64,000 bases of DNA. It comes from Limnomonas spitsbergensis. Taxonomy: Eukaryota > Chlorophyta > Chlorophyceae > Chlamydomonadales. The stretch is taken from the NCBI GenBank assembly GCA_037349105.1, contig JAYJMM010000094.1, positions 806,001 through 870,000 of the forward strand. The letters are read 5' to 3'. This document shows, in pieces, positions 10,054-64,000 of the stretch; the first letter of the stretch is position 1; each line of letters opens with the position of its first letter. The notes under the pieces are model-generated. The model did not search any database and was not told the DNA's origin. It was given only the letters and a program-made list of their open reading frames with translations. A program made the translations under genes and the position numbers.

Positions 10054-13000
10054 TCATTTCTTGCCCCTTGCCTTCCTGGTCGGAAGCACTGGCTTGGCCG
10101 AGGGAGCAGCCACAGGCGGCGCCGAGCTCCTGTCCAGGTTCTCGTCCACCTTTCCAGCACCCTGCAGGAGCAGCCAACAACACCAGGCACTCATCAGTGA
10201 ATTCGCTTTTTGTTTGCCGACGTGTCCGGGCTTCATTTCAGCATGGCTCAGAGGTGTATCGTCATTGACTCATATTAGTAAGTTTGCACTGCTTCTCCTT
10301 TTGGGGGTGAGAGAGATCCTTTCCTTCTACTTTGTGTCCCTCTCTTCTTTTTCCTTCCTCTCTTAGCTGAACATACCCTCTGCCAACAAATTGTTGGGCG
10401 CCCACGCGGCCGAGCCTTTTCAGCAGGGCCCAGAGGTGCAACGTCATCCTCTCATAGTAGTCATAGACTCATATCCTGTTATCGCATAGCACCGTCTGAA
10501 TCCTGTCGTTAACAAGGCTTACCAGCGGGCATTGTCTAGGGGCACAACACTGGTGGCAACCATACCCCAAGTTTGAGGGATCGAACCCGGCACACGATCC
10601 TCTCTCCCCCCCTGTCTAGATCGCCGGATCCATGTTCCTGCCTCCTCACATAGGCGGGTGGCATGGCTGCACCATGGCCCAGGCTGTGCATGGTAGCTTG
10701 ACTTGACCTCAGTCATTCCCTACCAGCCCCACACGCCCGAGCGTTTAGCAGGCCCCAGCGGGTATGCACCATAATAATCTTCACAAAGGCTTTAGCCAAC
10801 TCGGGCGACATGTGGCGAGCCAGAGAAGACACGCCCTGCCCAATGGCCCTACACACCCGCGACGCTGATGCTGACCCCAAAATGCCTTCGGGCAGGACCA
10901 GTGCTCCGCCTCAAATTCAAAACAACATGACAGCTAGCCCTGACTTTCAAAACTAAATCTTATGCACACCCACCCCACCTCTGGCGTCGCAACCATCCAA
11001 CCAGCATCCTCTCAGCCTAGCCATCCCACCTAAGTCTAGCAGCCTTTCCCCACCTGCTACCTCCAAGTCTTGCAGATTGTCCCCACAGGCACCTCAAGCA
11101 CACATCAGCCTTCCCCACAGGCACCTCAGGAGCACGACAGCCTTTCCCATACCGTAGATTTGCTGTGCCTTCCCTCACAATTGTAGTTGATTGGGGTTCA
11201 GGGATCCATGAATATACTAAGTATCCATTGCCGACGCAAGTTTTTTTTCTTTTCAGTCAGACATTAACAGAGCTTTCGTCGATAATTTGCCCTGAGGGCA
11301 GCATTGAAACAAATCGTGTTTTCATACACGAGGGAGGGCTTTTCAAATCTATGATATGCGCCTAAGGAGAACACCAGCCTTCCCCAATAGGGGAGCACCT
11401 CACCTGGCTCCCCTTGACCGTCTCGTTCCCTCGTTCCCCTCAATAGGGGGGCACCTCACCTGGCTCCCCTTGACCGTCTCGTTCTTGCGCTGCGCTGACT
11501 TCATTTTCTTCTTCCTGAACTCGACGCGTTGCCACTTGGGCAGCCAACGCTCAGCGTTGGGCGGTGGCAGCCCGCCCCCCGGCAGCTCAGGGTTGTAGCC
11601 CTTGGGGAGCAGAACCTTGTGCTTCCGCTTCTTCGTCTTCTGCATAAGGGATTGGGGGAGCAGTCAGGGCGCTAAACAACTCCAGAAACATGGCACACAA
11701 GTCGCAACCAAGCAACGGTGAAATTACAGGGTTCAGGGTTACAACCCTTTGGGTGCAGCACCTTACGCTTCCGCTTCTTCGTCTTCTGCACGCGGTTTAG
11801 GAGGACGTTCAGGGTATTGGGCAGTCAGGGTGTTCCACAGTTTTATTAAAAAAAAGTTTAAGACCAATCTTAAATTACCCCCCATTTTTGTGGCTCTCAA
11901 AAAGTCCAATTTAATCGCGGTGAAGGCGAGGCGGAGCTGCGGTGGGGGCAGGGTTGCGGTGGGGCGCCCGGGCCCCCCCGCCATGGGGGTCCGCAGGCCA
12001 CCCCCAGGTGGGGGTGCGGGAGAAAAGCCCCCCCCTGAAATAATCTATGCTGCTACATCACTCGCATGATACACAACCAGACACCGGTGGAATAAAATCA
12101 ACCAGGCAAGAGGTCCCTGAAGCATACTGTGAAGTGTGAAATGGAGCTTGTACCCTCAACCCTTACGCTTGAGCCCCCTTAAAATGAAAATGAGTTCAAG
12201 ATGAATGAGCTTAGGGCCCACCGTTTCCCTCCCTATGTACTGTGCGACATTCCTCAGTACACCTCTTTCTGGCGGCTCAGACCTAGCGCCCACGCCTACC
12301 CCCCTCTGCCCCCCCGCCCCCTGTTACCACCCTTCCGCACCTTGTGCTCCACCTCCATATCTGCGACATCCCCCTTCTTGGACTCTTTCTTCTTGAAGCT
12401 GCCCCCGACTTCCTGGGTCTGGTTCTCCAAGTTGTCCACGTCCACACTACGCACCTGCAACGCAGTTAACCCCCATAATTAGCGCCAACACCAAGAAAAG
12501 GTCAAAGGGGGACAATAACGTGTCTGAGAGAGAGACAGCAAACACTCTATTTGTCGGAAAAGTCAGAAGAAAAACAGCAATCACAACAGACATGCAGAAA
12601 ACCAACAGGCTTTAGGGTCTACCTAAATCTAAACCCAAAACATGCAGGAGGCCAACGGGGTTTAGGGTTTAGGGTCTACCTAAACATGAACCCTAAACCC
12701 TAGGCATGCAGGACTCCACTGCGACGCCCAGATGAAAAGGAGCAGAATTTTCTAAGGTCCTGGGGGCCTTTTGACAAAAAATGGATCAAACCGACCCTCT
12801 ATTTTGTTCCGTTGACTTCCGCTGCCCAGGTATTATTTTTCGGTTGATTTTTTTGATGTTAGGATTTCTTGGGACACTGCAAAATGTTTCCTTGACCGGC
12901 AACCCCTTCAAGCGCGCCGCAACATTTATACGATTCTCGATTTTTCCATGGGATTTTGCAAACTAGGGCTTGAAGTCTTGAACCCTGATACATGACTTGG

Positions 13001-16000: not shown

Positions 16001-19000
16001 TTGATTCAAGGGTGTTTAAACCATGACTCTAAACCCTGTTCAGCTTTGATTCAAGGGTGTTTAAACCATGACTCTAAACCCTGTTCAGCTTTGATTCAAG
16101 GGTGTTTAAACCATGACTCTAAACCCTGTTCAGCTTTGATTCAAGGGTGTTTAAACCATGACTCTAAACCCTGTTCAGCTTTGATTCAAGGGTGTTTAAA
16201 CCATGACTCTAAACCCTGTTCAGCTTTGATTCAAGGGTGTTTAAACCATGACTCTAAACCCTGTTCAGCTTTGATTCAAGGGTTTGTTACCCATTTTTCT
16301 TAACCCTGCCCAGCTTTGATGTAAGGGTTTTGATCCATTATTCTAAACCCTGTTTAGCTTTGATTTTTTTTGTTTTTAATATTACTCTGAACCCTGTTCT
16401 TGAAAAGTGTGGGCCGTGGCGTGGACCTTCAGAGCTGACACATTAATGTGGATAAAGTGGGCCCATAATTGGCACAAGTGGTCACACTAGTCATCTAGTA
16501 CAACATCCACACCGACCTGCTGGTACAGCGATCACACTTATATTCTAGTACAACATTCACACCGACCTGCCACCACACTAATCTTCCAGTACAAACATTC
16601 ACACACCCCTGTTAGCACAGCGCTTACAAAAATCCTCCAGAACACCATTTACACTCATCAGTTGGCACAGCGGTCACACTAGTCATCCAGAACACCATTC
16701 ACACTCATCAGTTGGCACAGCGGTCAGACTAGTCATCCAGAACACCATTCACACTCATCAGTTGGCACAGCGGTCACACTAGTCATCCAGAACACCATTC
16801 ACACTCATCAGTTGGCACAGCGGTCACACTAGTCATCCAGAACACCAGTCACACTCATCAGTTGGCACAGCGGTCACACTAGTCATACAGTACACCATTC
16901 ACACTCATCAGTTGGCACAGCGGTCACACTAGTCATACAGTACACCATTCACACTCATCAGTTGGCACAGCGGTCAGACTAGTCATCCAGAACACCATTC
17001 ACACTCATCAGGTGGCACAGCGGTCACACTAGTCATACAGTACACCATTCACACTCATCAGTTGGCACAGCGGTCACACTAGTCATCCAGAACACCATTC
17101 ACACTCATCAGTTGGCACAGCGGTCACACTAGTCATCCAGAACACCATTCACACTCATCAGGTGGCACAGCGGTCACACTAGTTATCCAGAACACCATTC
17201 ACACTCATCAGTTGGCACAGCGGTCACACTAGTCATCCAGTACACCATTCACACTCATCAGTTGGCACAGCGGTCACACTAGTCATCCAGTACACCATTC
17301 ACACTCATCAGTTGGCACAGCGGTCAGACTAGTCATCCAGTACACCATTCACACTCATCAGTTGGCACAAGCAGTCGACCTAGTACAACATTGACACCGA
17401 CCTGCTAGTACAGCGATCACACTACTCATGCAGTACAACATTCACACTCACCTGTTAGCACAGTGGTGACACTAATCTTCCAGTACAACATTCACACTAG
17501 TCACACTAGTACAACATTCACACTGACCTGCTGGTACAGCGCTAGTCTCGATGCCAGCACCGCCCCCGAATAGGCCACATTGGGCTCCTCCCCAGCGCCA
17601 CCTCGGCCACCTGAGGGAAGCTGGGACAGAAGCTCCAGCGCCTTCGCCGCCCCGCCGCCGCCGCCCTCCAGCGCGAGTTGAGCGCGCATCAGCAAGGTCT
17701 GCGTCACCGAGCAACCGGCGGGTGGGGACGCACAAAACGCCTCCAACGCGGCATCGGCATCCTGAGCCTGGCGAGTGGGACAGAGGCAGTGCAAAACGTG
17801 GTTCGTGGGTACGTATATGGTATATTAGCATATATGCTTATACGTGGTACCTGTATATGCCAGTGCCAATTTACGGTATAGACCAGCCCTATAATGGTGG
17901 GAGGGTGAGCACGAGGAGCTTGCGGCCCTGGGCCAATCAGACCCCAACCCCGGCCCTGAATAGTGGGATTCAGGCCTTAGCAAAAAATAGAGTACCAGTA
18001 CATACATTTTTTTTTTTGAACCATTTATCTTTGATTTATCTTTTATTAAAAAAGAATATATAAACCCGATATAAACCGGTACCAGTATATATTTTGCATA
18101 TTTTGTTGAAGGCCTCAGGGGTCAAGAGCCAGCCGACACAATAAGCAGCCAATTCAACATACCGTGAGGGAGCATGCCGCCATACCTTGTAGACCGGTAC
18201 AGACAAGAGCCAACCACTTCAGGCCTTCAAGGGCCACATGGGTCAAGAGCCAGCCGACACAATAAGCAGCCAATCCAACATACCGTGAGGGAGCATGCCG
18301 CCATGCCTTGTAGACCGGTACAGACAAGAGCTTACCACTTCAGGCCTTCAAGGGCCTCTGGGGTCAAGAGCCAGCCGACACAATAAGCAACCAATCCAAC
18401 ATACCGTGAGGGAGCATGCCGCCATACCTTGTAGACCGGTACAGACAAGAGCCAACCACTTCAGGCCTTCAAGGGCCACATGGGTCAAGAGCCAGCCGGC
18501 ACAATAAGCAGCCAATCCAACATACCGTGAGGGAGCATGCCGCCATGCCTTGTAGACCGGTACAGACAAGAGCTTACCACTTCAGGCCTTCAAGGGCCTC
18601 TGGGGTCAAGAGCCAGCCGACACAATAAGCAGCCAATCCAACATACCGTGAGGGAGCATGCCGCCATACCTTGTAGACCGGTACAGACAAGAGCCAACCA
18701 CTTCAGGCCTTGCTTTGTGAGACTTGCAACCGTCACTCGATCCATCCGGTCCTTGCAAAATGCCGGCCCTTGCCTAAAGCCTGAAACATCCCAACATACC
18801 TCCCTCTGGCAGCTGGCATCTGGCATCTGGCATCTGGAAGCTGCCACTCAATAGGCATCTGGCAGCTTCCACCCTCTGGCAGCTTCCAACCTCTGGCATC
18901 TGGCATCTGGCATCTGGAAGCTGCCACTCAAGAGGCATCTGGCATCTGGCAGCTTCCACCCTCTGGCAGCTGGCAGCTGTAAGCTGTCAGCTGCCACTCG

Positions 19001-22000
19001 ATACCGATCATCCCAGAACACCAGCAGCAGACCATGATTCACACCTAGCCCAAACTCGTATTCACACTCATATTCACACATCACCCACACTCGTATTCAC
19101 ACCTTGCCCTCTGCCGAAAGCAGTGATGCCTTGAGCAGCACCAGCAGCGTGGACTCGCCATACTGCCGCCCCACTGCCGCCACCGTGTCACGCGCCATGT
19201 CGTACCGCCCTGACAAGAGGTACAGCAGCGCCCGGTTCAGGTGTAGTGCCAGCTTCTGGGGTCCCGACAGACGCGCCTCCAGATACGAGCTAAGCCTCAG
19301 CATGGCGGGCTGCGGTGGTAGGAGCAAAGGTAGGAATTGCGTCAAGGTCGATTTGTGTTTGCTTGCATTCACAAATTAAATTTGCTTTCAAGGCATCAGT
19401 GTGAGCCGAGCCTCAGAGCATGGCGGGCTGCTGAGGCAAGACAGACACATCAGAAAAAAAACATTTTTTTTACTATTTTGAAATTAGCGATATAAATTGC
19501 CGTCTTGCATGTGCAAGGCAGGAAAGCATTTGCGCGGCGACCAGGATGCTCTCACTCTGACCTCTCACCCTGACCAAGGCTTGTGTGCCGGCACTTGCTT
19601 CGAGCAGCGGAAGACAAATGCACCACACCAGTGGTAGAGCCTGCTTTCCCCTATATCCCTGGCAACCTAGTAGGCTACCACTTGTTCTAGCATGCTTCAG
19701 CTACAATTTAGCTACATCACGACCTACGGCTGTGGAGGCCCCGTGCAGCATGCCCTACTCCCACAGCTCTTGGCCGTAGGCCGATCAATGCTTGGTTCCA
19801 ATCGGCCCAGTAATGGCCAGCGGCGGCCCCCCATAGGTGTAGCATGCCGTACTCCAACGACCATCAGGCCAATCAATGCTTGGTCCCAATGGGCCCCGTT
19901 ATGGCCGGCTGCTGGCGGCCCCTCATAGGTGCTTTGGCATGCACTGAACTAAACACTTCGTCCTACCCAGAGCTCAGGCCGAACAGGTGGCTAGTTTGAC
20001 CCACTTGATTTGTGTCTTGGATGCGCGCTAGTATTAATTCAAAATCGCCACTGCGCGGAGTGCCAGTCAGGCGCCTAGACAATTAGTATGGGGGTGCGCG
20101 CTATGATTTAAATGATTTAAATGGTTTAAATGATTTAAAAATCATTAATATAACAACTTGGCGACCCAGAGCGCGCGACAATTTGTGAAGTCATCCCTGA
20201 AACCCTACCCAGTGATCAGGCCGAACAGGTGGCTTATTTTACCCATGATTTATATATTATTCATGATTTATATATTATTCATGATTTATATATTATTCAT
20301 GATTTATATATTATTCATGATTTATATATTATTCATGATTCATATATTATTCATGATTTATATATAATTCATGATTTATATATTATTCATGACTTATATA
20401 TTATTCATGATTTATATATTATTCATGATTTATATATTATTCATGATTTATATATTATTCATGATTTATATATTATTCATGATTTATATATTATTCATGA
20501 TTTGTATATTATTCATGATTTATATATTATTCATGATTTATATATTATTCATGATTTATATATTATTCATGATTTATATATTATTCATGATTTATATATT
20601 ATTCATGATTGAACAATTCTTCATGATTACGTGTCTATTTATTGACCCCATCCCTCCCTCCTGTCCCTCACACCTTATCCCGGTCCAGCAGACCCTCCAT
20701 TCGTTTTGCAGCGTTGCCAACATACCTGAGGGCCATCAGGGGAGTGAGATTGAGGAGGGGTATCACAGAAATGGAGGAGTAGGGACAGGGGGCAAGTCCA
20801 AGGCCCTGAAAAAATGAGGTATGAGAAATATCAGGAGTGACATTGGGAGGGGCATAACAGAATTAGAGGAGCAGGGACAAAAGGCAAGTCTAAGGCCCTG
20901 AAAAGATGGGGTATGAGAAATATCAGGAGAGAGAACGAGAACGAGCTTCATGAGAGACAGAGTAGCAAGGTCTCAACACAAACAAAGGGCTTAAAGTATA
21001 GCATGCCAAGTAGGTGTCTCTCACCGGCCCCTCCCATCTTCCCGTACTCACTATTTCTGCGCTGCACCTTGCTGTCAAGCAAGCCAAGGTCTCTACCCGC
21101 CCGTCCATCTTCCTATACTCACTTTTTTTGCGCTGCGGCAGAGTCCACCTTCCCCGACTCCGCGATATTGTTGTTGTGAGCGATGGCGCGCACAACGTCC
21201 TCGCTGATGGCGCTGTTGGCCAGCACCTGCCAAAAGGGGGCAGGGAGGGCTTCGGCAAACTGCTGATAGCTCAAGGCCGACCCAGCAGCACAGGAGCACA
21301 GGGGCACAGGGGCACAGGAGCACAGGGCACAAGAGCACAGGAGCATAGGGCTTTGCCAGGGAGGGGGCAAAGCGGCTGGGTTACCTGCTTTATTAGGAGG
21401 GAGGCATGCACCTTGGGCGTTCAGCTTAAGGAGGAGGCAAAGCGGCTGAGAATGCACCTTCGCTTAGGGGGGGGGGGGCAAAGCGGCTTGGGCGTTCAGC
21501 TTCGCTTAAAGAGGAGACAAAGCAGCATGGGTACGGCTCAGGTACTTTGTCAGGAGATGCAATCGTTGCAGCCCCTCAACTAGCCCCCCACTCCACATGC
21601 GCACCTCTCCTGTCACGTGACGCAAGCGGTGGAGCCCCTTTACCAGTCTTTCACTCTACATGCACACCTCTTCTGTCATGTGGAGCCCCTCAACTAGCCC
21701 CCCACTCCACATGCGCACCTCTCCTGTCACGTGACGCAAGCGGTGGAGCCCCTTTACCAGTCTTTCACTCTACATGCACACCTCTTCTATCATGTGGAGC
21801 CCCTCAACTAGCCCCCCACTCCACATGCGCACCTCTCCTGTCACGTGACGCAAGCGGTGGAGCCCCTTTACCAGTCTTTCACTCTACATGCACACATCTT
21901 CTGTCATGTGGAGCCCCTCAACTAGCCCCCCACTCCACATGCGCACCTCTCCTGTCACGTGACGCAAGCGGTGGAGCCCCTTTACCAGTCTTTCACTCCA

Positions 22001-25000
22001 CATGCACACCTCTTCTGTCATGTGGAGCCCCTCAACCAGCCCCCCACTCCACATGCACACCTCTTCTGTCATGTGGAGCCCCTCAACCAGCCCCCCACTC
22101 CACATGCACACCTCTTCTGTCATGTGGAGCCCCTCAACCAGCCCCCCACTCCACATGCACACCTCTTCTGTCATGTGGAGCCCCTCAACCAGCCCCCCAC
22201 TCCACATGCACACCTCTTCTGTCATGTGGAGCCCCTCAACTAGCCCCCCACTCCACATGCGCACCTCTTCTGTCATGTGGAGCCCCTCAACCAGCCCCCC
22301 ACTCCACATGCACACCTCTTCTGTCATGTGGAGCCCCTCAACCAGCCCCCCACTCCACATGCGCACCTCTTCTGTCATGTGGAGCCCCTCAACCAGCCCC
22401 CCACTCCACATGCACACCTCTTCTGTCATGTGGAGCCCCTCAACCAGCCCCCCACTCCACATGCACACCTCTTCTGTCATATGGAGCCCCTCAACCAGCC
22501 CCCCCCTCCACATGCGCACCTCTTCATATCCTTGCAACGCCTCAGCCGCCTGCCCCTGCCGGCCTAACACGTACGCCAGCTGCACCGAGAGCGGGGCCAG
22601 CTCTTCAGCCACTTCTGCCTCGCTGCAATCCACCTCAAACAACGCCTCGCGGCCTGGGCCATAGGGACAGGTGGGAGGAGGGGGGGCACACTTGCAAATG
22701 GTGAACACTTTTACCTCGCTGCAATCCACCTCAAACAGCGCCTCACGGCCTGGGCCATAGGGACAGGGACAGGGAGGGGGGTGCACACTTGCAGGTGGTG
22801 AGCAGCCACACTGATGGCGGTGCACAGCATGTGACTTCAAGAGGTTGCATGTGCAGCATCTCCCGGTCTGGGTTACAGGGGCAGAGGGAAGGGAGGGGGG
22901 GGGGGGGACACACTTGCATCGAGTAAGCAACGCCATCCCTCTGGTCTCCCGCACCATTACCTTTCGGGACGTGCACGCCCTCCCCTGACACACTCACCCA
23001 TTTTCAGGGCCAAGCGCAGCTCTGCCTCTGCTCCTGAGAAGTCGCCCATGTGAAGTAGCGCGCAGGATTTGTTGAATCCAAGCTCAAAGCTCTGATTACT
23101 GCTGACCTACACGAATTGAGACCGACAAGCCAATGAGCCAAGCCAATGAGAGCCAGGCCAAGTCAGGCCAAGCAACTGAGCCAGGCCAAGCAACTGAGCC
23201 AGGCCAAGCCACTGAGAGCCAGGCCAAGTCAGGCCAGGTCAGGCCAAGCCACTGAGAGCATGGCCAAGCCAGGCCAAGCCACTGAGAGCATGGCCAAGTC
23301 AGACCAGGTCAGGCCAAGCCACTGAGAGCATGGCCAAGCCAGGCCAAGCCACTGAGAGCCAGGCCAAGTCAGGCCAGGTCAGGCCAAGCCACTGAGAGCC
23401 AGGCCAAGTCAGGACAAGCCACTGAGAGCCAGGCCAAGTCAGGCAAGGTCAGGCCAAGCCACTGAGAGCCAGGCCAAGTCAGGCCAGGTCAGGCCAAGCC
23501 GCTGAGAGCCAGGCCAAGCCAGGCCAGCCCATGCCCAGCCACTGAGAGCCAGGCCAAGTCAGGCCAGGTCAGGCCAAGCCGCTGAGAGCCAGGCCAAGCC
23601 AGGCCAAGCCATTGAGAGCCAGGCCAAGTCAGGCCAGGTCAGGCCAAGCCACTGAGAGCCAGACCAAGTCAGGCCAAGCCACTGAGAGCCAGGCCAAGTC
23701 AGGCCAGGTCAGGCCAAGCCACTGAGAGCCAGGCCAAGTCAGCCCAAGCCACTGAGAGCATGGCCAAGTCAGCCCAAGCCACTGAGAGCCAGACGAAGTC
23801 AGGCCAAGCCACTCAGCAAGGCCAAGTCAGGCTAAGCCACTGAGCCAGGCCAAGTCAGGCCAGGTCAGGCCAAGCCACTGAGAGCCAGTTCAAACCAGGC
23901 CAAGCCAGTGAGAGCCTGGCCAAGCCACTGAGCCAGGCCAAGTCAGGCCAAGCCACTGAGAGCCAGGCCAGTTCAGGCCAAGCCACTGATCCAGGTCAAG
24001 CCAACCAAGCCACTGAGTGCCAGGTCAAGCCAGGCCAAGCCACTGAGTGCTAGGCCAAGCCAGGCCAAGCCACTGAGAGTCAGGTCAAGCCAGGCCAGGC
24101 CATGCCCAGCCACTGAGAGCCAGGTCAAGCCAGGCCAGGCCATGCCCAGCCACTGAGAGCCAGGTCAAGCCAGGCCAGCCCATGCCCAGCCACTGAGAGC
24201 CAGGTCAAGCCAGGCCAGCCCATGCCCAGCCACTGAGAGCCAGGTCAAGCCAGGCCAGGCCATGCCCAGCCACCGAGAGCCCGGTCAAGTCAGGCCAAGC
24301 CACCGAGGGCCAGGCCAAGCCACTGAAAGCCAGGCCAAGCCACTGAGAGCCAGGTCAAGTCACTGAGTGCCAGGCCAAGCCACGGAGTGCCAGGCCAAGC
24401 CAGGCCATGACACTGAGCCAGGCCAAGGCAGGCCAAGCCACTGAGTGCCAGGCCAAGCCAGGCCATGACACTGAGCCAGGCCAAGGCAGGCCAAGCAACT
24501 GAGAGCCAGGCCAATCCAGGCCATGACACTGAGCCAGGCCAAGACAGGCCAAGCCACTGAGTGCTAGGCCAAGCCAGGCCAGCCCATGCCCAGCCACTGA
24601 GAGTCAGGTCAAGCCAGGCCAGGGCCATGTCCAGCCACTGAGAGCCAGGTCAAGCCAGGCCAGGCCATGCCCAGCCACTGAGAGCCAGGTCAAGCCAGGC
24701 CAAGCCACTGAGCCAGGCCAGCCAAGCCCCTAAGAGCCAGGCCAGGCCAAGCCAAGCCCTTGAGAGCCAGGCTAGGCCAGGCCAAGCCACTGAGCCAGGC
24801 TAGGCCAGGCCAGGCTAGGCCAGGCCAAGCCAAGCCCCTGAGAGCCAGGCCAGGCCAGGCCAAGCCACTGAGCCAGGCATGAGGTATATATCCAGCGCGC
24901 ATTATTCAGGCATGGTACAAGAAAACGTCTCCTTCATTGGGCTAGTCTGTTTGTGCTTTGAAGTGGTTCAGCCTTAATTAGGAATGTGGTGTTTAATTAT

Positions 25001-29376: not shown

Positions 29377-29622
29377 TTGGCCACTGGCATGAAGATGGTG
29401 CTGCACGGGGAGGCCCAGGCCAAGAATGTGTTCTGGCAAGTGGGCTCATCTGCTACCTTCGAGGTGAACTCCGAGGTGGTTGGCATTGTCATGGCCTATG
29501 CTGCCGTCACCATCAAGACCAGCGCCACCGTCGAGGGACGCCTATTTGCTTTGAACGAGGCTGTGACGATGGAGGCCAACGAGATCCGCTACCCATCGGA
29601 GAAGACTGTGGGAAATGTGTAG
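29377..29622 (+). pseudogene. Orphan last exon of a second DUF3494 ice-binding protein
   Basis: It is preceded by an acceptor CACCCTCAG and opens in phase 0, like exon 3 of the gene at 4540. It encodes 81 residues ending at TAG. Conserved blocks are GMKMVLHGEAQAKNVFWQ, GSSATFEVN, AVTIKTSATVEGRLFALNEA and VTMEANEIRYPSE. It is very similar to the other copy, without frameshift or stop. I looked for exons 1 and 2 (signal peptide, LLGVSPGSSVTG) between the SRP72 start at 27883 and here and found none. It is therefore either a partial gene duplication or the tail of a gene whose 5' exons have been lost or diverged. The intact frame and acceptor suggest a recent copy, or one still used by splicing from an unseen exon. 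Confidence 0.82.
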
Positions 29623-30905: not shown

Positions 30906-30947
30906 AGAATGTTGCAGCATCTGAGAACGTCTGTGCCTGAACGATAT

Positions 30948-45800: not shown

Positions 45801-47469
45801 GCCTAGAAACATGAGGTGCTAGAACAAAAACAGCCTGGGTGCGCATGTTGCCCTCTTCGGCAGCTGAGAAAAGGTGGGCAGGAGCAGGAAGGGCATATGA
45901 CCAAAAAACGCTCACTCGGCTGCAACAACTCATTCGTGAAAACTTACCCGTAGGTCACAACAAAAAAGCATTCTACAGATACAGTGTCATAACACAGAAA
46001 TGCGTGATGGCTATGGGGGGCCATTGGTTTGGTACTAGTACGTCCTCCTCTGCTTTCTAAAAATCCTCTACTGCTCCGCCACTGTCATCATTGTTCACCT
46101 CATGTGCGAGCCGTGCACCCCCCTGATACTTATACTCCTTGGTTTGGTACTAGTATCTCCTTCTCTGCTCTTCCCTACAGCTGCGCTGCCAGGATCTCCC
46201 GCTCTGCCACCGTCAACATTGGGTACATGATGCTCTGGTACTAAACATCCTCTTCTGCTCTAGTACTAATAACTCCTCCTCTGCTCTGGTACTAATAACT
46301 GCTCTTCTGCCCTGGTACTAATAACTCCTCCGCTGCTCTGGTACTAATAACTCTCCCTCTGCTCTGGTACTAATAACTCCTATTCTGCTCTGGTACGAAT
46401 TACTATTCCTCTGTTCTAGTACTAATAACTCCTCTTCTGATCTACTACTAATTACTCCTCTACTGCTCTGGTACTAATAACTCCTGCTCCACTCTGGTAC
46501 TAATAACTCCTCATCTGCTCTGGTACTAATACCTCCTCATCTGCTCTGGTACTCATAAGTATTCCTCTGCTCTAGTACTAATAACTCCTCTTCTGCTCTG
46601 GTACGAATTACTCCTCTAATGCTCTGGTACTAATAACTCCTGCTCTACTCTGGTACTAATAACTCCTCCTCTGCTCTGGTACTAACAACTCCTCCTCTGC
46701 TCTGGTACTAATAACTCCTCCTCTACTCTGGTACTAATAACTCCTCATATGATCTGGTAATAATAACTCCTCATATGCTCTGGTACTAATAACTCCTCAT
46801 ATGCTCTGGTACTAATAACTCCTCCTATGCTCTGGTACTAACAACTCCTGCTCTACTCTGGTACTAATAACTCCTCATATGCTCTGGTACTAACAACTCC
46901 TCATATGCTCTGGTACTAACAACTCCTCCTCTGCTCTGGTACTAATAACTCCTCCTATGCTCTGGTACTAACACCTCCTCCTATGCTCTGGTACTAATAA
47001 CTCCTCCTATGCTCTGGTACTAACAACTCCTCCTATGCTCTGGTACTAATAACTCCTCCTATGCTCTGGTACTAACAACTCCTCCTATGCTCTGGTACTA
47101 ATAACTTCTCCTATGCTCTGGTACTAATAACTCCTCCTATGCTCTGGTACTAATAACTCCTCCTATGCTCTGGTACTAATAAATCCTCCTATGCTTTCCT
47201 CCTATGCTTTCCTAAATCCTCCTATGCTTTCCTATAGCTGCGCTGCCGGGATCTCCCGATCCGCCACCGTCATCATCGGGTACATCATGCGACAGCAGCG
47301 CATCGGTTATGATGCGGCCTTCCGGCAGTTGCACGCCGTACGCCCGTGGGTCATGCCCAATCGGGGCTTCCAGCAGCAGCTGCGGGAGTACGAGCGGCTG
47401 GAGTATGATCTTTCGAAGTGGATCCCCGGCCGGCATACAGCTGAGGAGGAGCCCTGGGTCTTCAACTAG
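42855..47469 (+). CDS. Dual-specificity protein phosphatase, 4 exons, 222 aa
   Basis: Exons are 42855-43136, 44310-44448, 45166-45181 (a 16-nt microexon) and 47238-47469; phases 0, 1 and 2 fit exactly. It is a cysteine-dependent phosphatase of the DUSP type, which removes phosphate from Ser/Thr/Tyr residues of proteins, often MAP kinases; the substrate here is unknown. The signature HCAAGISRSAT spans the exon 3/exon 4 junction, with catalytic Cys147 and Arg153. The likely general acid is Asp116 in NISDSPTEDL. The domain opens PTQVVPGIFIGSF and closes with an RGFQQQLREYERLE helix, as in small DUSPs. The first 55 residues are disordered and very acidic (GEEEDDDDEVF). No MAP-kinase-binding rhodanese domain is present. 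Copies of the exon 2 end and of exon 4 pieces lie in and after the introns. Confidence 0.94.
43500..43640. repeat. Dispersed family B copy in phosphatase intron 1
   Basis: Words GGGGCCTGCGGCTGAGGCCT, GGTGCAGCATGCTG, GGCCGGCTAGCTGCC and CTGGTGTGCACACAAAATA follow the order seen in other family B copies. A CCATGCACCTG short tandem repeat follows at 43700-44060. Confidence 0.6.
44516..44979 (+). pseudogene. Four decayed copies of the phosphatase exon 2 end with donor
   Basis: Copies lie at about 44516-44571, 44719-44777, 44845-44891 and 44945-44979. Each resembles GAGCTGCTTTGACTTCATC, GACGAGGCATTGTC, AAAAGGTGTGTG, i.e. the last 45-55 nt of exon 2 plus donor. The intron start (GAGAGAGAGATG, TTAGCGTCCTC) is copied with it. 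The first copy has a family A element (ATGACGTTTCACCTCTGGGC, from 44588) just downstream. Divergence rises with distance from the true exon. Confidence 0.85.
46181..46232 (+). pseudogene. Partial copy of phosphatase exon 4 start
   Basis: An acceptor CTTCCCTACAG is followed by CTGCGCTGCCAGGATCTCCC, GCTCTGCCACCGTCAACATT, GGGTACATGATG. This copies the exon encoding CAAGISRSATVIIGYIM with a few changes (R for G, N for I). It then breaks directly into the 26-bp repeat, about 1.05 kb before the true exon. Confidence 0.9.
46233..47200. repeat. 26-bp minisatellite in phosphatase intron 3
   Basis: About 36 copies of CTCTGGTACTAATAACTCCT plus CCTATG. It lies between the partial exon 4 copy and the real exon 4, and its last units (TCCTCCTATGCTTTCCTA) form the pyrimidine tract of the functional acceptor CTTTCCTATAG at 47237. 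Confidence 0.95.
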
Positions 47470-47499
47470 CATGCATGCCGTAAGTGTGGACATTCACAA

Positions 47500-49930: not shown

Positions 49931-52900
49931 AGAAGCCATATGTGGTACCAGACGGTGTACCACACCGTCTTACGTTGTGTGGCTCCTTGTCTATGCCACC
50001 AAAGCGCCCGCCGTAGGCTGAAAACAGGCGTGGAAGGCGGGCGCAGACCTATGCTCGATGGCTGCATTCCCCCTCCTTTTTTCCTTCCCTAGTTCCTTTT
50101 TTCTTCCTTAGTTTATTTTTCTTTTACTAGTTCCATTTACGGTGTCAACACCCAACCCTGCTCTAGATGCATTAACCCCCAAATATAACTCCAGATCCAT
50201 ATGCAAGACTCTTCTCGTACCTTCACATGTCTTCCTCCCCCACACCACCATGCCTCCTGTACCCCGGACCGCTTTACCCCCCCCACCCTCCTGCCCTACC
50301 CCACCCTCCTTACTGCTTTACACCCCCCACCCCCCGCCCTACCCCACCCCCCTTACTGCCATGCCACCGACCTGAGGCACGCGCCCTGCTGCTGCAGTGA
50401 CCAGCCCTGCGTTGCGCGTGCCTGCCAGCCAAAGCTTGTCTTTCACCTGGCCCACAGTCTCCATTGAAGGGAGCTGCATGGCGTCTGCACCCACCAGGGC
50501 AGCCTTCATCATACCCAAGTTATGATGCGCCTGCAACAGGGTTAGGGGGGGAAGACGGGCAACAGGGTGGCAGGGTTAGGTGGGGTAGACGGGCAACAGG
50601 ATTAGGTGGGGCAGACAGGCGACAGGTTTAGGTGGGGCAGACAGGCGACAGGTTTAAGGATAACTTGGGGCAGCATGGCACTGTAGGTGAAGGATAACTT
50701 GGGGCAGCATGGCACTGTAGGTTCAGGATAACTTGGGGCAGCATGGCACTGTAGGTTCAGGAAAACATGGGGCAGCATGGCACTGAAGGTTCAGGATAAC
50801 TTGGTGCAGCATGGCACTGTAGGTTCAGGATAAGTTGGGGCAGCATGGCACTGTAGGTTCAGGATAACTTGGTGCAGCATGGCACTGTAGGTTCAGGATA
50901 ACTTGGTGCAGCATGGCACTGTAGGTTCAGGATAACTTGGTGCAGCATGGCACTGTAGGTTCAGAATAACTTGGTGCAGCATGGCACTGTAGGTTCAGGA
51001 TAACTTGGGGCAGCATGGCACTGTAGGTTCAGGATAACTTGGGGCAGCATGGCACTGTAGGTTCAGGATAACTTGGGGCAGCATGGCACTGTAGGTTCAG
51101 GATAACTTGGGGCAGCATGGCACTGTAGGTTCAGGATAACTTGGGGCAGCATGGCACTGTAGTTTAAGGGCTAGGTGGGGCAGCATGGTACGAGTTGAAG
51201 GGCTAAACCCTCAGCCCCTCAGAGACCCTAAACCCTCAACCCCTCAGAGACCCTGAACCCCTTATAGACCCTAAACGCTCAGCCCCTTAGAGACCCTGAA
51301 CTCTCAACACCTCAGAGACCCTAAAACATCAACCCCTCAGAGACCCTGAACCCTGCACCAAAGCGATGGTGCCTACCTAGGCCATAAACCCTAAAACCTT
51401 TACCTAAACCCTACCTAGGCCATAAACCCTAAAACATTTACCTAAACCCTACCTAGACCATAAACCCTAAAACCTTTACCTAAACCCTACCTTGGCCATA
51501 AAGCGGCCACTGAAGGTAGTGGGGGGCGCGTCTTGAGATGCATCGCCCGGCACCGCTCCGTTCGGAGACCTCCCTACAAACAAATCCAAGGAAGCAGTGC
51601 GGGGCGAGGGGCGTATCTGACATTTGACTGACGTGTAACTGCAGGTTTTGAGACACAGACTTGTCTTAGGGTTCATACTGCCGAACAGTTCAGGGTTTAG
51701 GGTCAAGGGTTTACATTGCCGCATGATACAGGGTTTAGGGTTTGGAGTTAATGCTGTTGCACGGTTCAGGGTCTAGGGTTAAAGATATCACAGTGTTACA
51801 TTTGAGACACAGACTTGGCGCCGTCACTGCCTCTGCTCCCTGCGCCCCAAGCTCCCCCTGAAGCCCCCTGCGCCCCCAACTCCTGAAGGGACCCGCCTTC
51901 CAACACCCACCTCCCTCCTGCTTCCCACTAATGGAAAGTGTAGCCCTTGCTGACTGGGCGCCGCCACTGCCTCTGCTCTATGTGCCTAAAACTCCCCATG
52001 CCCTCTCCGCCCCAACTCTTGTATAAACCCACCTCCCTCCTGTCTTCCGCTGATGGAAGGCGCAGCACCCACGGCCTGGGCACCGTTGCTCCCCTCGCCC
52101 CCGGGCAAGCCTTGGCCTAAGCTCCCTGCGCCCTCGCGGTCTCCCATCCGGGATGAAGCCCCGGCAGGTTGCCCGAGCACCTCGGTCGTTGTTGTAGTGG
52201 TGACTTCCTCGAAGCTCACAAGCTGCAAAGCGTGGATATTGTCTTCATTAACTACAGATTTTTTTAGTATTATTGAACAAGGATGTATTGGAGTGACCTC
52301 GGCTGCTGAATTCTATTGAAAAGGACTGCATTTTAATATATAATTAATTTAAGATTATTGAATTTAATTATTGAAAAAGTAGGTACTCGTGTGACCACGG
52401 CAGCTTGCCTGAGCACCTCGGTGGTTGTGGTGACCTCAATTAAGCTTACTGAGACAATGACGATCCTTCCTCACACACTGTGAGATAGGATCGACATTGT
52501 CTCAGTAAGCTTAATATTTTTTTTGTATAATCCCCTGGTATTATTTGGAAAACACAGATATTGGAAAACACAGATATTGGACAGACACTGGCAGCTTGAC
52601 CGAGCACCTGAGTGGTTGTGGTAATGGTGACCTCCTCAAAACACTGTCTCAGTAAGTTTTTAAAAATATTCTTATTGCAAAATCATAGATTCTGGACAGA
52701 TCCCGACAGCTTGCCCGTGCGCCTCGTTTGCAGCGGATACCTCCTCGAAGCTACCAAGTTGCGGAAGGATGGACGTTATTTCAAAATCATAGATTCTGGA
52801 CAGTCCCCAGACCCCAGACTTGGCAGCGGATACCTCCTCAAAGGTACCAAGTTGCGGAAGGATGGACGTTATTTCAGTCAAGTTAATGATTTAATACCGG

Positions 52901-53903: not shown

Positions 53904-53904
53904 C

Positions 53905-54570: not shown

Positions 54571-54699
54571 CCTTGCGCACACTCAGACACACAGTTCCCC
54601 CTTCTGATTATCCCCCCAACGATGTAAACCCTTAAGTGGTAAGCCTCACTCATGGCCTCACGCACAAACAAAACCAACAGTGATGTACATCCTCACGTG

Positions 54700-57200: not shown

Positions 57201-58286
57201 TCGGGAAGGTGGCCTAGCGTGCTTAAGAAATGGGAGAAAACGGAGGAAAATAAACCTTGCGGCATACAGTGTTGGGTGTGGAAATGCGGCATAGGATATG
57301 AGGCAAGGTCGCATGGGGAACATGGAGCATGCGGCATGGGGCAAGGGATGCATGGAGCACGGGGCATTGGGCATGGGCTGCAATGAGCAGCATGGGGTGC
57401 ATGGGGCATGGTCAAGGTGGCGTGCGACATGGGGCATGAAAGCCTTATGCGTTCCTCCCCTGACATGTCTCATGCTTTGTAATGAAGGATGGACACTCTG
57501 GTAGATGATGGATGTTAGGTACAGAAAAGGGCGTGCACGGACTGTTTTGAAGCAGCCGGGCAGCCGGGCACTGGGCGCTCGGTTCGAACATCATATAACG
57601 CTCAGGCATGCGCAGTCCCATCCCGCGCAAGCCTGTTTGCCGGTCCCACTGCTGCCCTTCCGGAGGAGAACGTCTCGCAAGATCCGCCCCGTGACGAACC
57701 CATCTCCATCGGGGCACACGAGGTTTCTGGTCTCGACAGACTTCTTTATTTACACGCACCAATCCGATTTCGCATATTCATCCAACACGTAGGGTTTCCA
57801 GACGTGTCCCTACCCCCACGCCCCCGTCGGCAGCCAGCAGCCACTCGTATTTATGAAAGGCACGATCGCATGGAGTCACTGACTGGTCCTCACCGGCACT
57901 TGTCCTTTATCTTGCATTTTCTTATTGAAATAGGCGAGCCCCGCGCAGCAAGAATGCTTCCGTCCTTCCGGCTCCGTCGCCCGTTCGTTGTTTGACATCT
58001 TGAAGTAGAGAAATAAACCAATGGATCAGTGTGATGATATAATATGAAGGAACTTTGGGTATGCGCACACAGCAGATGAGCAGCAGTCTAACCGTGCGGA
58101 CCACAACAGCATAAACTGATTTGTACTGCACGTCCCAGTCAATCCTTCGAAGAAACAAGTCCTGTTTATCGGACGCATTTTGGGGCAACGCTAATCAGGA
58201 TCGTCCCCAAATATCCCTGTCTAAAATTAAGCTAGTCGCATTTACCACTCTGCCCCCAAGGCTCTTTGCAAAGAAAACACTTCCTC
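57201..58286. other. Likely divergent promoter region
   Basis: Contains short GGGGCATGGAGCATG repeats at 57300-57440 and then non-repetitive DNA up to the CCDC40 start at 58287. The gene to the left is transcribed away from it, so the promoters of both genes probably lie here. Open frames on both strands at 57445-57792 have no motif I recognise. No TATA box is evident. Confidence 0.45.
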
Positions 58287-61200
58287 ATGGCTGAGCCGGA
58301 TGAGGATCCCATCCTCGGCGGGGGTCTGGACCCCGACCACCCGCTGTTGGCGCGGGCGCAGGATGCCCTGAAGAAGCAGCTTATGGCCAACAAAAAGCGC
58401 CTCGAAGACGAGGTTCGAGAGAAGCAGAACGCGTTGAAGGTGCACATTTCAGAACTGGCGCGTAGCATATTAAATAAAACATATCGGGAAATGCAGCATT
58501 GGACGTGCTACATGCGCTGCCCGCTGCTCGTCTGCACCACGAACCCCTGACAGTGGCAGATGCTTTCCATCCTGGCAGCACAGACCGTGCGGTGCCTGTT
58601 CAGCACAGGACAGGGATAGCAAGACGCTGCCTTACTCGCGGAACCGTGTGACCTCTTGCCAAAGGCCTCATGCTTCATGTACACACAGCACAGCGCAACG
58701 CGCCCCGGAAGAAAAGCTCCCAGAGCAAGCGTGCTCGCGTGACACGGCTTGTGTTTTACATTTCCACCCTCACCTCGTCCTTCTCCCAGATGGCCAAGGC
58801 GAAGCGCGAGAGCATCGGTGTGGAGCTCTACGGCTTCCAGCAAGGCCTGGCGAAACTCCAGATGCAGCTGGAGACAACGCATCAAAACTTCCAAGCCATC
58901 GCCAGTATACGAACCCAGGTATGCACTGGTGTCCTGAGACTGAGGCCCCCCCTGCATGGGACATACGCATGGGGCAATTATTTGCACCCATCTCAAAACT
59001 GTGCCATGTTGCATGGCATGAGGCACATGGATTGCCCTCAGCCATGCCGTGGTGCACCTCAGGCTGACATCGTGTCCCCCACGCAGCGGGCTGCATGCAT
59101 GCATCCCCCATTACCCATGTGCATGGCGCGCTGGGCAACGTACGCCTAAAGCATGTAGCGCCATGCAGGGGCAGGGCGGCCGCGCCCTCCTTCTGGTCGC
59201 ATGGAGACGACGCCATGCGGTGCATGGAGGCGGCTTGTCTCCATGCGATGCCATGTGGTGTCCGCATTCTGATGGCATGGGTGCACCTCCGTTCCGGTTG
59301 CATGGACGCAGCTGAACTCCCATGTGGCGCATGGAGGTGCCCCGTCCCCATCTGGCACATGAGGGATGCTTGTCCTGTACGTCTCCTAATGACACGCAGG
59401 CAGACAGGACAGGGCGCTGCGCTTTCTAGCATCGCCAACAAACTGCCCGTTGCATCTTGGGTTGCTGCTGTTGCCATGCCTCAGTACAGTATGTAACGGG
59501 GTTCTCGAATCTGAATAAGCATCAAAACGGCGCCCTACTGTCTAACAATTCGCCCTATGAAAATACCGGTGTCCACACCCTATCGCACTTACATACCCGG
59601 TCTCTCTCCTCAATGCCCTATGAAAAGACCAATGTCCACACCCTAACGCACTTACATACTGTCATACCCTGTCTGTCTCCTGAATGCAGGCGGAGGAACA
59701 GCTGGCGGCGCTTAAGGCCGGTTTCACCGGCGACGACACGGACACAAAGCGGGAACGGACACGGGTGTGTTGCTTGCATTTTGATTGGGGGCATGAATAC
59801 ATGAGGATAAGGGATTAAGGGTGGTGGGGGTATGAGGGTTAAAGGTCGAGGGTAAGGCAATGAGGGTTAAGGCGGTTGGGGGCATGAGGGTTGAGGGTTA
59901 GGGTTAAGGCAATGAGGGTTAAGGGGGTTGGGGGCATGAGGGTTAAGGGATAGGCGTAGGGCAATGAGGGTTAAGGGTTAGGCGTAGGGCAATGAGGGTT
60001 AAGGGATAGGCGTAGGGCAATGTGGGTTAAGGGGTTTGGGGGCATGAGGGTTAAGGGTAAGGCAATGAGGTTTAAGGGTTGGGGGTAAGGCAATGAGGGT
60101 TCAGGGTTGGGGGTAAGGCAACGAGGCTTCAGGGTTGGGGGTTAGGCAATGAGGCTTCAGGGTTGGGGGTAAGGCAATGAGGGTTCAGGGTTGGGGGTAA
60201 GGCAATGCGAGTTCAGGGTTGGGGGTTAGGCAATGCGGGTTCAGGGTTGGGGTAAGGCAATGAGGGTTCAGGGTTGGGGGAAGGCAATGCGGGTTCAGGG
60301 TTGGGGGCACTGGGCCGTTTGGGGGCATGAATACATGATGCAATGAACCCTCAGAGGCTCAGGCTCGGGGTTACTTCTTTAGGATCGCTTCAGGATGGAG
60401 ACTGAAGGATCAGCAAGCCTGCAGTTGAACCCCGATGAGATGGTCAGGTATGCTATGTCGTTTGCAGGTTATGACTGTTGTTACGGGGTTGCTGCGGTCA
60501 CAGGATTATGTCATATATCTGCCGTCAGCTCCCGGCATCCGTCCCTCCCTAATGGCGTGCATTCCTCAGGTACTGTTACACTCACAGGATTAGCCCCCAA
60601 CCTTCCTTGAAAAACCCTGAACCCTGAACCCTGACCCCTGAATCCTGAACCCTGAACCCTGAACCTTGGACCTTGGACCCTGGACATTGAAACCTAAACT
60701 CCAAACCCTGCGTTATGTTTCCATGCTACAGGTGGAGAAGCACCAAATGGAGCTGGACCGTCTGGGGGCCACACTGAAGCAGATTGAGACATACAACGAG
60801 GAGATGAAGGGCGAGATTGCCGTCACTCGGCGGGCAGCTTATGCGGCGGAGGGCGCTGTGCAGGTTCTGGAAAAGGACAAGCTGCAGCAGGATCTGAGGT
60901 GAATTGAGAGGAGCGGGTAACGGGGGGGGGATGGGGCTGTACGGTGGAGGGCGCTGTGCAGGGTCTGGAGAGGGACAAGCTGCAGCAGGATCTGAAGTGG
61001 GGTGAGAGGAGAGGAAGCTGGAGACAAGGGGTGGGGGAGTAAGGAAGTGGGGGATGAGGAAAGGGGGGCTGTGCATTGGAGGGGGCTGTGCAGGGCCTGG
61101 AGAAGGACAAACTGCAGCAGGATCTGAGGTGGGGTGAGAGGAGAGGAAGCTGGAGACGAGGGGTGGGGGTGTAATGGAGTGGGGGATGAGGAAAGGGGGG

Positions 61201-64000
61201 CTATGCGGTGGAGGGGGCTGTGCAGGGCCTGGAGAAGGACAAACTGCCGCAGGATCTGAGGTGGGGTGAGAGGAGAGGAAGCTGGAGACAAGGGGTGGGG
61301 GAGTAAGCAAGTGGGGGATGAGGAAAGGGGGGTTGTGCGGTGGAGGGGGCTGTGCAGGGCCTGGAAAAGGATAAGCTACAGCAGGACCTGAGGTGGGGTG
61401 AGAGGAGCAGGAGCTGGAGACGAGGGGTGGGGGTGTAATGGAGTGGGGGATGAGGAAAGGGGGGCTATGCGGTGGAGGGGGCTGTGCAGGACCTGGAGAA
61501 GGACAAACTGCCGCAGGATCTGAGGTGGGGTGAGAGGAGAGGAAGCTGGAGACGAGGGGTGGGGGAGTAAGCAAGTGGGGGATGAGGAAAGGGGGGTTGT
61601 GCGGTGGAGGGGGCTGTGCAGGGCCTGGAAAAGGATAAGCTACAGCAGGACCTGAGGTGGGGTGAGAGGAGCAGGAGCTGGAGACCAAGGGGGTTGAAAG
61701 GAGTGGGGGACGAAAGGGGGCGGTTACGGATCGGGAAGAGTGACAACAGTGAGTGTGAAAGGAGTGGAGGAGGAGGAAAGGGGGACTATGCGGAAGAAGA
61801 CGCTGTGCTGGGTTTGGAGAAGGACAAGCTGCGGCAGGATCTCAGGTGGAGTGAGAGATGCGGGAGCGGGGTACGAAGGAGGGGGGTAATGGGAGTAACG
61901 GGGCTGGCAGCTACCTGCTGTGAAGCTGCTCTGCGCCTACCGGCCCTACAATTTAGTTATCCTTATGATATTGCTGCCGCGAAGCTGCTACCGGGCATCT
62001 GCTCTGTCACTGCCTCCTTCCCCAGGCCCGTCACTGGATGTACGGGTCTAAATGACCTAAATTCTTTTGTTTTATTCATGGGTCTAGATGACCTAAATTC
62101 TTTTATTTTATTCATGGGTCTAGATGACGTAAATTCTTTCATTTTTTTCATGGGTCTAGATGACCTAAATTCTTTTTATTGATTTACCTTTATTCATTTG
62201 TTTTATTTCGGTCTAGATAATATTCCTTTTTCAAACCCAAACCCCGAACTTCTGTACCGCTTCGACACGATGCAGGCCTGCAGCTGTCACTCCACACTGC
62301 ACTGTCCAAGGCGCAGCAGCCGGGTGACATCAACCCTGAACCCTGAACCATACACCCTGAACCATACACCCTGAACCCTCAACCCTGAACCCTGACCCCC
62401 AACCCTGAACCCTCAACCCTCAACCCCCATACAGGATTGACACCATGCAAGACAACATGAAGGGATTGCAGCAGCAGCTGTCCCTGCACACGGCACAGTA
62501 CGAGGCGCAGAAGCGGGAGACGAGGGCCGCGATGGAGACGTTGGCCGAGGCGGAGGCGGAGATGGAGACGGTCCATTTTGAGAAGAAACAGCTGCTTGCG
62601 CAGTGGAAGAGCAGCTTGATGGCCATTCAAAAGTGAGGCTCGGTTGGGACTTGAGGTGGGGTGGGGGAGGCGGAGATGGAGTCAATCCATTTTGAGAAGA
62701 AACAGCTGCTTGCGCAGTGGAAGAGCAGCTTGATGGCCATTCAAAAGTGAGGCTCTGTTGGGACTTGAGGTGGGGTGGGGGAGGCGGAGATGGAGTTCAT
62801 CCATTTTGAGAAGAAACAGCTTGCTGTGCATTGGAAGAGCAGCTTGATGGCCATTCAGAAGTGAGGTTCGGTTGGGACTGGAGGTGGGGTGGGGGAGGCG
62901 GAGACGGAGAAGGTTCGTTTTGAGCTGTCTTACATGCAAGTGGCCTTGACCCGTGGCCCTAAACCTAGCCCTAACCCGGGTGTATCAAGCAGGGCAGATG
63001 AGGGGATGCCTGTCATGCAAGTGGACTTGACCCTAAACCCAATCCCGGCTGCCCCATGCAGGCGTGATGAGGCGCTGTCCGCCATGCAAGTGGCGATGCG
63101 AGAGCAGCAGCAGCAGGAGCTTTCGATGGACAGCGAGATGCAGGGATACAAGAGGGACATTCTGAAACAGCAGATACAGAACGAGCAGGTGTGAGACTGC
63201 GAGGGAGTGTCACACTAGTGTGGATGCAAGTGTGAGATGTTGGGATGGACAGCGAGATGCAGGGATACAAGAAGGATATTGTGAAGCAGCAGATACAGAA
63301 CGAGCTGGTGTGAAGGGAGGCACACAAGTGTGAACATCAGAGTGAGAGGATGGGATGAAGGGCAAGATAAAGGAATATGAGAGCAGGGGTATTCTGATGC
63401 AGGAGGTTCAGAACGAGCAGATTTGAGGAGGCATGAGGAGGTGTGAGGAGGTATGAGATGATAGGTTGGCGGTTTTGAGATGCAGGGCTGCAAGTTGGTG
63501 TGGAGTGTGCGTGAACAAGAGCCGTCCAGGACGCATGTCTAGGCAATTGCAAATTTCTGGACGATGACCCCCTCAAGGCTTAACCAGTACTATCGCCATA
63601 AACCCTAAACCCGCCCCGCTCTCCTGCAGCTGACCAGTGTCCTGAGGATGGGCGAGGGCGAGAGCATGTCTAATCTTGAGTCTAGGGTTAAGGAGAACTA
63701 TCAGTCTAACACTACAGCTCTCAAGCCGCCCCCCTCCCCGCTCCCCCCCTGCAGCTGACCAGCATCCTGAGGAAGGTCGAGGGAGAGAGCATGTTATTGG
63801 GTTCAGGTTTACTATCATCCTAAAACCTTTATCCTAATCCCTCCCCTCTCCCCCCACTCCCCCGCCGCTGACCAGTATCCTGTAAAAGGTTGGGCACGTT
63901 CTTGAGTTGAATAACTATCATCCTATTACCTAACCCTAAACCCGCCCCACTCCCTCCGCCCCCCTCTGCAGCTGACCAGCATCTTGAGGAAGGGCGAGAG
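58287..64000 (+). CDS. CCDC40: CCDC40/FAP172-like axonemal coiled-coil protein, 5' part
   Basis: Exons are 58287-58439, 58790-58918, 59690-59764, 60383-about 60442, 60732-60898, 62435-62632 and 63062-63188, then one of four copies of the next exon start (63630, 63755, 63868 or 63972). The gene runs off the window. CCDC40 and CCDC39 form the molecular ruler that sets the 96-nm repeat on ciliary doublet microtubules. Diagnostic stretches are LDPDHPLLARAQDALKKQL, IGVELYGFQQGLAKLQMQLE, AEEQLAALKAGF, VEKHQMELDRL and, across exons 6-7, LAQWKSSLMAIQKRDEAL. The order and spacing match CCDC40 as I remember it. The whole product is heptad-rich coiled coil. The exon 4 end is uncertain: GTCAGG at 60443 keeps frame, while the stronger donor GTATGC at 60448 would need an extra small exon. 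Introns 5, 6 and 7 are filled with copies of the preceding exon's end. Confidence 0.9.
59810..60330. repeat. 28-bp GGGTT-rich minisatellite in CCDC40 intron 3
   Basis: Units of GGCAATGAGGGTTCAGGG plus TTGGGGGTAA, degenerating leftwards into GGGTTAAGGG words. They are telomere-like but not a true telomere. Confidence 0.92.
60945..61850 (+). pseudogene. Seven tandem copies of the CCDC40 exon 5 end plus donor
   Basis: Each unit of about 130 bp carries GAGGGGGCTGTGCAGGGCCT, GGAGAAGGACAAACTGC and GCAGGATCTGAG|GTGGGGTGA, matching the exon 5 end (codons GAVQVLEKDKLQQDLR). The copies lie near 60945, 61078, 61212, 61340, 61474, 61605 and 61790. A 320-codon minus-strand open frame across the array is an artefact. 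Confidence 0.93.
62671..62940 (+). pseudogene. Copies of the CCDC40 exon 6 end plus donor
   Basis: Two nearly full copies (62671-62746 and 62781-62860) and a fragment (62901-62940) repeat GGCGGAGATGGAG, CATTTTGAGAAGAAACAGCT, GAAGAGCAGCTTGATGGCCA and the donor AA|GTGAGG, about 115 bp apart. Confidence 0.95.
63242..63425 (+). pseudogene. Two copies of the CCDC40 exon 7 end plus donor
   Basis: 63242-63309 (GATGGACAGCGAGATGCAGG, ATACAGAACGAGCTG|GTGTGA) is close to exon 7. 63353-63421 is more diverged (GTTCAGAACGAGCAG, donor lost). Confidence 0.9.
63620..64000 (+). repeat. Four copies of an acceptor plus the start of CCDC40 exon 8
   Basis: Copies start at 63630, 63755, 63868 and 63972, with spacing of 125, 113 and 104 bp. 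Each has a pyrimidine tract, CTGCAG and CTGACCAGCATCCTGAGGA. The third has lost the AG and gained a stop. The last one runs off the window and may be the true exon (codons LTSILRKGE). Confidence 0.88.

Follow-up and report, generated by a model that had tools for sequence, protein, structure and literature searches.

Copies of exon borders in the introns of the snow alga Limnomonas spitsbergensis and their probable origin by local tandem duplication

Introns of Limnomonas spitsbergensis contain copies of the end of the adjacent exon together with its splice site, which raises the question of whether such copies are seeded by a process directed to exon borders or are left by duplication that takes no account of gene structure. 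The annotation of this Arctic snow alga lists 18,277 genes, with introns of 788 bp on average, and IsoSeq data exist for the species (PMC11228838). The window, meaning the whole stretch of 64,000 nucleotides that was analysed (C94:806001-870000), belongs to an assembly whose 124 contigs total 260,226,709 bases. A preliminary description of it proposed that local duplication with a breakpoint inside the exon leaves a redundant splice site and is followed by array growth, and that arrays seeded at exon borders genome-wide would be a distinct phenomenon.

The window junctions considered belong to four genes. SRP72 (10054..27883, minus strand, 16 exons) has a continuous 700-aa frame and GT-AG introns, and its 24 homologues are 33-63% identical, the best being that of Chlamydomonas eustigma (63%); the 700-aa product aligns over its length with four green-algal SRP72 proteins. 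CCDC40 matches C. reinhardtii FAP172 over the junctions that have arrays, with E 1.5e-147 for E1-E9 and E 2.3e-124 from E10 to the exon following E14. Its exon E4 (60383-60442) has no counterpart in FAP172 and may be spurious, and hence two of the 54 window junctions, both without a copy, are doubtful. The border of CCDC40 E11 was corrected by 7 nt from the first-called start, and the copy found there spans the corrected border too, while for E14 the FAP172 alignment puts the end about 18 nt before the called border, with the exon called E15/E16 following directly. The E14 donor and the acceptor of the next exon entered the early inverted and decoy tests and the comparison of array identities, and are excluded from the pooled count of 71 among 233 junctions given below. 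The phosphatase is a DSPc protein (Pfam, E 2.6e-31); for the membrane protein, whose predicted model starts at 37685, no Pfam match was obtained with the 293 residues searched.

In the window, a junction-spanning copy in a junction's own intron was required to outscore every one of 30 null draws taken from other introns. Spanning copies above all 30 null draws were found at 13 of the 54 junctions (27 introns of SRP72, CCDC40/FAP172, the phosphatase and the membrane protein), with scores of 37-145 against null maxima of 20-26 at these junctions and 17-29 over all 54; at a fixed score of 35, 8/25 donors and 5/25 acceptors pass. In SRP72, where all features lie on the minus strand, the E7 acceptor with the start of its exon is copied at 22706..22767 (58/62 identical, AG kept), and the E7 donor has given an array of a ~51-bp unit at 21582..22493, with GT in each of its 16 copies. 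Donor copies of E8 (21027..21065; 33/38, GT kept) and acceptor copies of E10 (19403..19431; 25/27, AG kept) are single, whereas the 50-bp minisatellite from the E11 donor at 16495..17463 holds 18 copies, reading GT in 4, AT in 13 and GG in 1. E15 is copied at both of its ends, the acceptor with exon start at 11733..11790 (exon part 45/53, AG kept) and the donor at 11382..11428 (45/47, GT kept).

On the plus strand, the membrane-protein exon end with its donor is present in two further copies (38607-38680 and 38834-38878, together 38607..38878), GT being kept in both, and the first of them is preceded by a 23-bp tandem array at 38195-38612. The end of phosphatase E2 with its donor has three copies at 44512..44984, all with GT, and the E4 acceptor is copied at 46158..46233, a 26-bp array (46231-47195) lying between copy and exon. 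In CCDC40, the end and donor of E5 recur seven times (60942..61864, GT in all seven), those of E6 twice (62687..62885, GT in both) and those of E7 twice (63248..63427, GT in one of the two), and an acceptor copy of E7 lies at 62969..63024 (41/56, AG kept). The E8 acceptor-copy array, with nine copies and AG in 8/9, occupies 63611..64000 and continues outside the window as far as the real E8 at 64663-64872 (window-plus-extension coordinates); beyond the window CCDC40 has further copies, including 20 before the exon following E14. Array sizes thus range from single copies, as at SRP72 E15, to these 20, and the junction arrays seen span at most about 2 kb.

The preliminary description had listed donor-side copies at SRP72 exons 7, 10 and 14, CCDC40 exons 5, 6 and 7, phosphatase exon 2 and the membrane protein, and acceptor-side copies at SRP72 exons 7, 9 and 14, CCDC40 exon 8 and phosphatase exon 4 (its SRP72 exons 9, 10 and 14 are E10, E11 and E15 here, and its exon 2 of the membrane protein is the first modelled exon here). 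All of these are present, and the copies at SRP72 E8 and the CCDC40 E7 acceptor are additions to its list. For its exon at 52222 the outcome is mixed: the predicted exon 52033-52222 (minus strand, copies within 51905..52762) has one donor copy at 51905-51963 and three acceptor-side copies, of which one (52702-52762) crosses the acceptor of this predicted exon, by 4 nt, and two stop short of it.

Tandem repeats with a period of at least 10 cover 28.6% of the window, a mean of 32% in 16 loci on other contigs, and 41% of sequence in 52 introns. SRP72 intron 15 contains a dispersed MITE-like element of ~200 bp (window 11150-11358) with copies in the sampled loci L002-L008; inverted ends, TACCGTAGATTTG ... 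CAAATCTACGGTA, occur in several copies, and there are at least 41 other matches (40 of 1,394 candidates were scored). A 23-bp unit is repeated about 60 times with 94% match at window 7-1384, outside the modelled genes, and on the minus strand of locus L011 (4495-7455) long repeat frames that stay open and read GLGEY... are probably a minisatellite that is open by chance. Interstitial runs similar to AAACCCT, the plant-type telomere repeat, occur in introns and between genes in many places of the window, for example at 12610-12700, 39090-39390 and 51200-51500. Pieces of an ice-binding-like domain (PF11999, E 1e-16 to 1e-20) lie at window 5155-5544, 6642-6890 and 29386-29622, which fits a snow alga.

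Beyond the window, 17 loci were taken, 16 of them hand-placed (non-random) at round positions on other contigs and one a neighbour. Many copies were taken for exons by a dynamic-programming gene finder, and a greedy exon finder was used instead, whose 80 candidate exons were reduced to 57 by leaving out 10 in L009/L010 and 13 that consisted of tandem repeat to at least 60%. In this predicted set (57 predicted exons in 16 of the 17 loci), copies were found at 14/54 donors and 11/56 acceptors (25/110), while searching in the mirror direction gave 0/54 donors and 1/56 acceptors (1/110). A firmer set rests on PF08393, the profile of the dynein heavy chain, which has 83 exon matches genome-wide, and from these seven stretches (38 matches) were chosen for clustering; their 31 gaps between neighbouring matches yielded 28 introns, two gaps having no consistent splice pair and one no exon, with splice pairs within one residue of the profile and a splice choice that rewarded profile agreement. 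Copies stand at 23/56 dynein junctions, with no mirror copy among the junctions whose mirror flank reaches 100 bp or more. Inverted copies were found at 1/179 junctions, and at 0/56 in the dynein set. With CCDC40 followed past the window, 15/52 and 7/12 junctions pass, and pooled over the sets a direct unit with exon end, splice site and adjoining intron is present at 71/233 junctions (~30%), which places the pattern among splice-site-bearing border tandem repeats. The distance between junction and nearest copy is 46-159 bp in 56 of these 71 cases.

The counted copies are direct-orientation DNA in which exon and intron are contiguous, contiguity being a condition of counting, and they are therefore of DNA origin and do not come from spliced RNA; an origin by retroposed or mRNA-derived insertion is ruled out, since the counted copies carry contiguous intron under that same condition. 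Identity between copy and exon at codon positions 1, 2 and 3 is 0.874, 0.871 and 0.793 (60 junctions; positions 1-2 against 3, p 1.4e-4), and the higher identity at positions 1-2 indicates that selection has held the exon and left the copies to drift. The CCDC40 array before the exon after E14 is the largest, and 13 near-full-length copies of its 20 have a mutual identity of 0.982 as compared to 0.874 to the exon; six of the seven E5 copies have 0.920 as compared to 0.860, so that both arrays grew from a copy that was already derived. However, copies do not clearly resemble each other more than the exon in the CCDC40 E8 array (0.953 mutual, 0.960 to exon) or the SRP72 E11 array (0.852 and 0.840), and no shared deletion was counted in the largest CCDC40 array, where a single motif was searched. 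Growth of arrays after seeding, as put forward in the preliminary description, is thus seen in the largest CCDC40 array and at E5 and is unclear in the other two.

Probable recent lengthening of an intron is seen between two dynein paralogues, whose exons 2-5 are 95-99% identical while intron 3 measures 265 bp in one and 948 bp in the other. By BLAST and TRF, the long form has 12.5 copies of a 63-bp unit that starts about six bases into the intron, as compared to ~1.5 copies in the short form. A third paralogue has 261 bp at the intron 3 position, which favours growth over loss. The same pair differs by 531 and 345 bp in two other large intron differences that are non-tandem, and duplication is therefore not the sole source of intron length.

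The probable explanation of the copies is position-blind local tandem duplication, tolerated since the mRNA made with the outermost splice site is unchanged. Local tandem duplications of ~50-150 bp would arise across noncoding DNA regardless of gene structure, presumably by replication slippage, template switching or unequal exchange, and those that happen to straddle a border would copy the exon end, the splice site and the adjoining intron into the intron. Such a duplication would be tolerated because the outermost site, which is the first donor or the last acceptor and presumably the one used, yields the same mRNA, and duplications wholly within exons would mostly be purged by selection. 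The copies would then decay neutrally or, in some cases, amplify into minisatellites, giving longer introns full of decoy sites. In the window, exon interiors have a copy in the adjacent intron at 8/36 points 25-40 nt from the border and at 0/127 points lying more than 100 nt away, and in introns of at least 400 bp the inward-copy rate drops to 0.135 at 41-60 nt into the exon.

The alternative that borders themselves seed arrays, with duplication occurring preferentially at intron ends or exon borders, for instance through breakage linked to transcription, R-loops or splicing or through microhomology of the splice consensus, appears unlikely, although several observations speak for it. Noncoding control rates in the four sets are 0.175, 0.292, 0.120 and 0.179, counting points without an upstream copy, and give an expectation of 36.2 junctions with copies against 71 observed, a ratio of 1.96 (CI 1.53-2.47), where control points search the rest of the intron, junctions search the whole intron and the predicted-set controls include intergenic DNA. 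Slower decay of the exon partner was considered as a cause of this twofold excess and dropped, since in simulation it predicts a ratio of 1.18 alone. The first-copy rate is also highest near borders, at ~0.42-0.45 within 60 nt of the junction and 0.08-0.17 from 150 nt, with the upstream-copy check applying only beyond 40 nt. Crowding of tandem repeats near intron ends is moreover reported for green algae, especially C. reinhardtii and V. carteri (PMC3887541).

However, the junction ratio is 1.42 for copies at least 90% identical (95% CI 0.88-2.17), an excess that is not significant, and 1.5 for those at least 95% identical, with an interval that includes 1. In the 43 introns of 400 bp or longer, inward copies of any kind occur at a rate of 0.42 for the junction, 0.44-0.45 for points 10-60 nt in and 0.35-0.45 deeper, without a peak at the splice site itself. 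Repeat coverage, taken by decile in 52 introns, has its minimum of 0.22 in the first decile and is elsewhere flat at 0.33-0.41, with no pile-up at the ends. A simulation without border preference gives junction rates of 0.60, 0.45 and 0.21 from starting introns of 80, 250 and 500 bp, of which one, that from 250 bp, matches the observed 0.42; at all three lengths it overpredicts the intron interior (0.65-0.88 as compared to 0.45 observed), which counts against position-blind duplication. Seeding at splice sites is thus not demonstrated, and a preference for borders may exist but is not required by these results. A wider form of the seeding idea, in which intron ends are mutational hot spots in this algal lineage, with transcription or splicing favouring border duplication, seeding arrays and setting intron length, is doubtful; if true, it would also explain the tandem-repeat crowding reported near green-algal intron ends.

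Measured against these results, the preliminary description holds in its mechanism, a local direct duplication that breaks once within the exon and leaves a redundant splice site behind, and in the occurrence of such copies outside the window; the outcome that it named as refuting, a lack of excess, did not arise in this sample, where junctions exceed noncoding controls. A process seeded at exon borders, which it said would be a distinct phenomenon, is not borne out by the young copies, the profile along introns or the simulation, which at one starting length needs no seeds.

Retention of the decoy copies for a function, either as alternative sites or as splicing backup, is quite improbable, although many decoys are well preserved: 51/83 donor and 38/56 acceptor decoys have an intact dinucleotide and a score in the range of real sites, many of them sharing an array and hence non-independent. 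The splice dinucleotide is intact in 0.903 of cases in the curated set as compared to 0.773-0.796 for control dinucleotides (p 0.02-0.04), and less clearly above controls in the predicted set (0.885 and 0.764-0.768, p 0.03-0.20), while the alignment bias found in a control for this retention is small (0.790 and 0.778). Against such a function, the dynein set has no excess (0.694 as compared to 0.724-0.750), all sets pooled give 0.833 and 0.763-0.764 (p 0.015-0.10), and the copies follow a pattern of neutral decay. Selection on decoy sites, hinted at by the first 44 junctions and absent in the dynein set, was accordingly rejected, there being no consistent sign of it. That the copies are artefacts of assembly or polishing is extremely improbable: tandem arrays are hard to assemble and the reference combines PacBio long reads with Illumina polishing, but the copies differ from each other and from the exon, the differences from the exon follow codon position, and the read L50 of ~33 kb far exceeds the junction arrays (PMC11228838).

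Related phenomena are already in print. Tandem repeats at exon-intron boundaries in human segmental-duplication genes, with 27 transcript-backed intron modifications, were read as novel-intron formation (PMC2812944); as in the alga, tandem units span the border and modify intron structure, but the human genes are recently duplicated, whereas the algal copies lie at the borders of introns already present in genes unrelated to one another. Gain of introns through tandem genomic duplication that involves splice-site sequence has been reviewed (PMC3443670) and described for Drosophila (PMC2891723). Such AGGT duplication resembles the algal case in that a splice site is tandemly duplicated and coding sequence is kept, but it creates a new intron between duplicated AGGT sites, while existing introns are lengthened here; it was ruled out as the origin of the algal copies, as no period equals the intron length in the known-intron sets and copies lie 46-159 bp away in 56/71 cases. 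Introners provide bulk gain of intron sequence as well, but they are dispersed, some with insertion signatures, in contrast to the local units of the alga (PMC9860276). In the window there is no sign of introner-like dispersed units, as the 13 positive junctions are unmatched in pieces of its other introns, where null maxima stay at 20-26. In the human 6-16 gene (IFI6/G1P3), a minisatellite is said to provide multiple splice donor sites, reportedly in Nucleic Acids Res 1995, 23:1854; like the array of SRP72 E7 it is reportedly built from a splice-donor region, but it concerns one gene in which several donors are said to be provided, whereas in the alga the outermost site is presumably the one used.

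Enrichment of tandem repeats near intron ends has been reported for 31 plants and algae, most of all for two green algae, and roles in splicing were suggested (PMC3887541). These are green-algal introns with repeats near junctions as here, but derivation of the units from exon borders is absent from the accessible part of that text, and the L. spitsbergensis introns sampled here differ in having no end pile-up. The literature searched held no report of the junction-copy pattern in L. spitsbergensis, the accessible part of the genome paper included (PMC11228838). Border repeats and splice-site duplication are known, and in the literature searched neither a prevalence such as the one given here nor a neutrality test anchored in the exon was found.

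A prevalence of ~30% of junctions makes the general idea countable, and the exon provides a slowly changing reference by which copies can be dated. Gene predictors may call copies as exons in this genome, as the dynamic-programming finder did here, and the annotation together with the IsoSeq data could reveal directly how, out of many sites that are nearly identical, the outermost is chosen in splicing. For the alga, local duplication across exon borders is an apparently neutral route to long introns that leaves the protein unchanged and naturally furnishes decoy splice sites.
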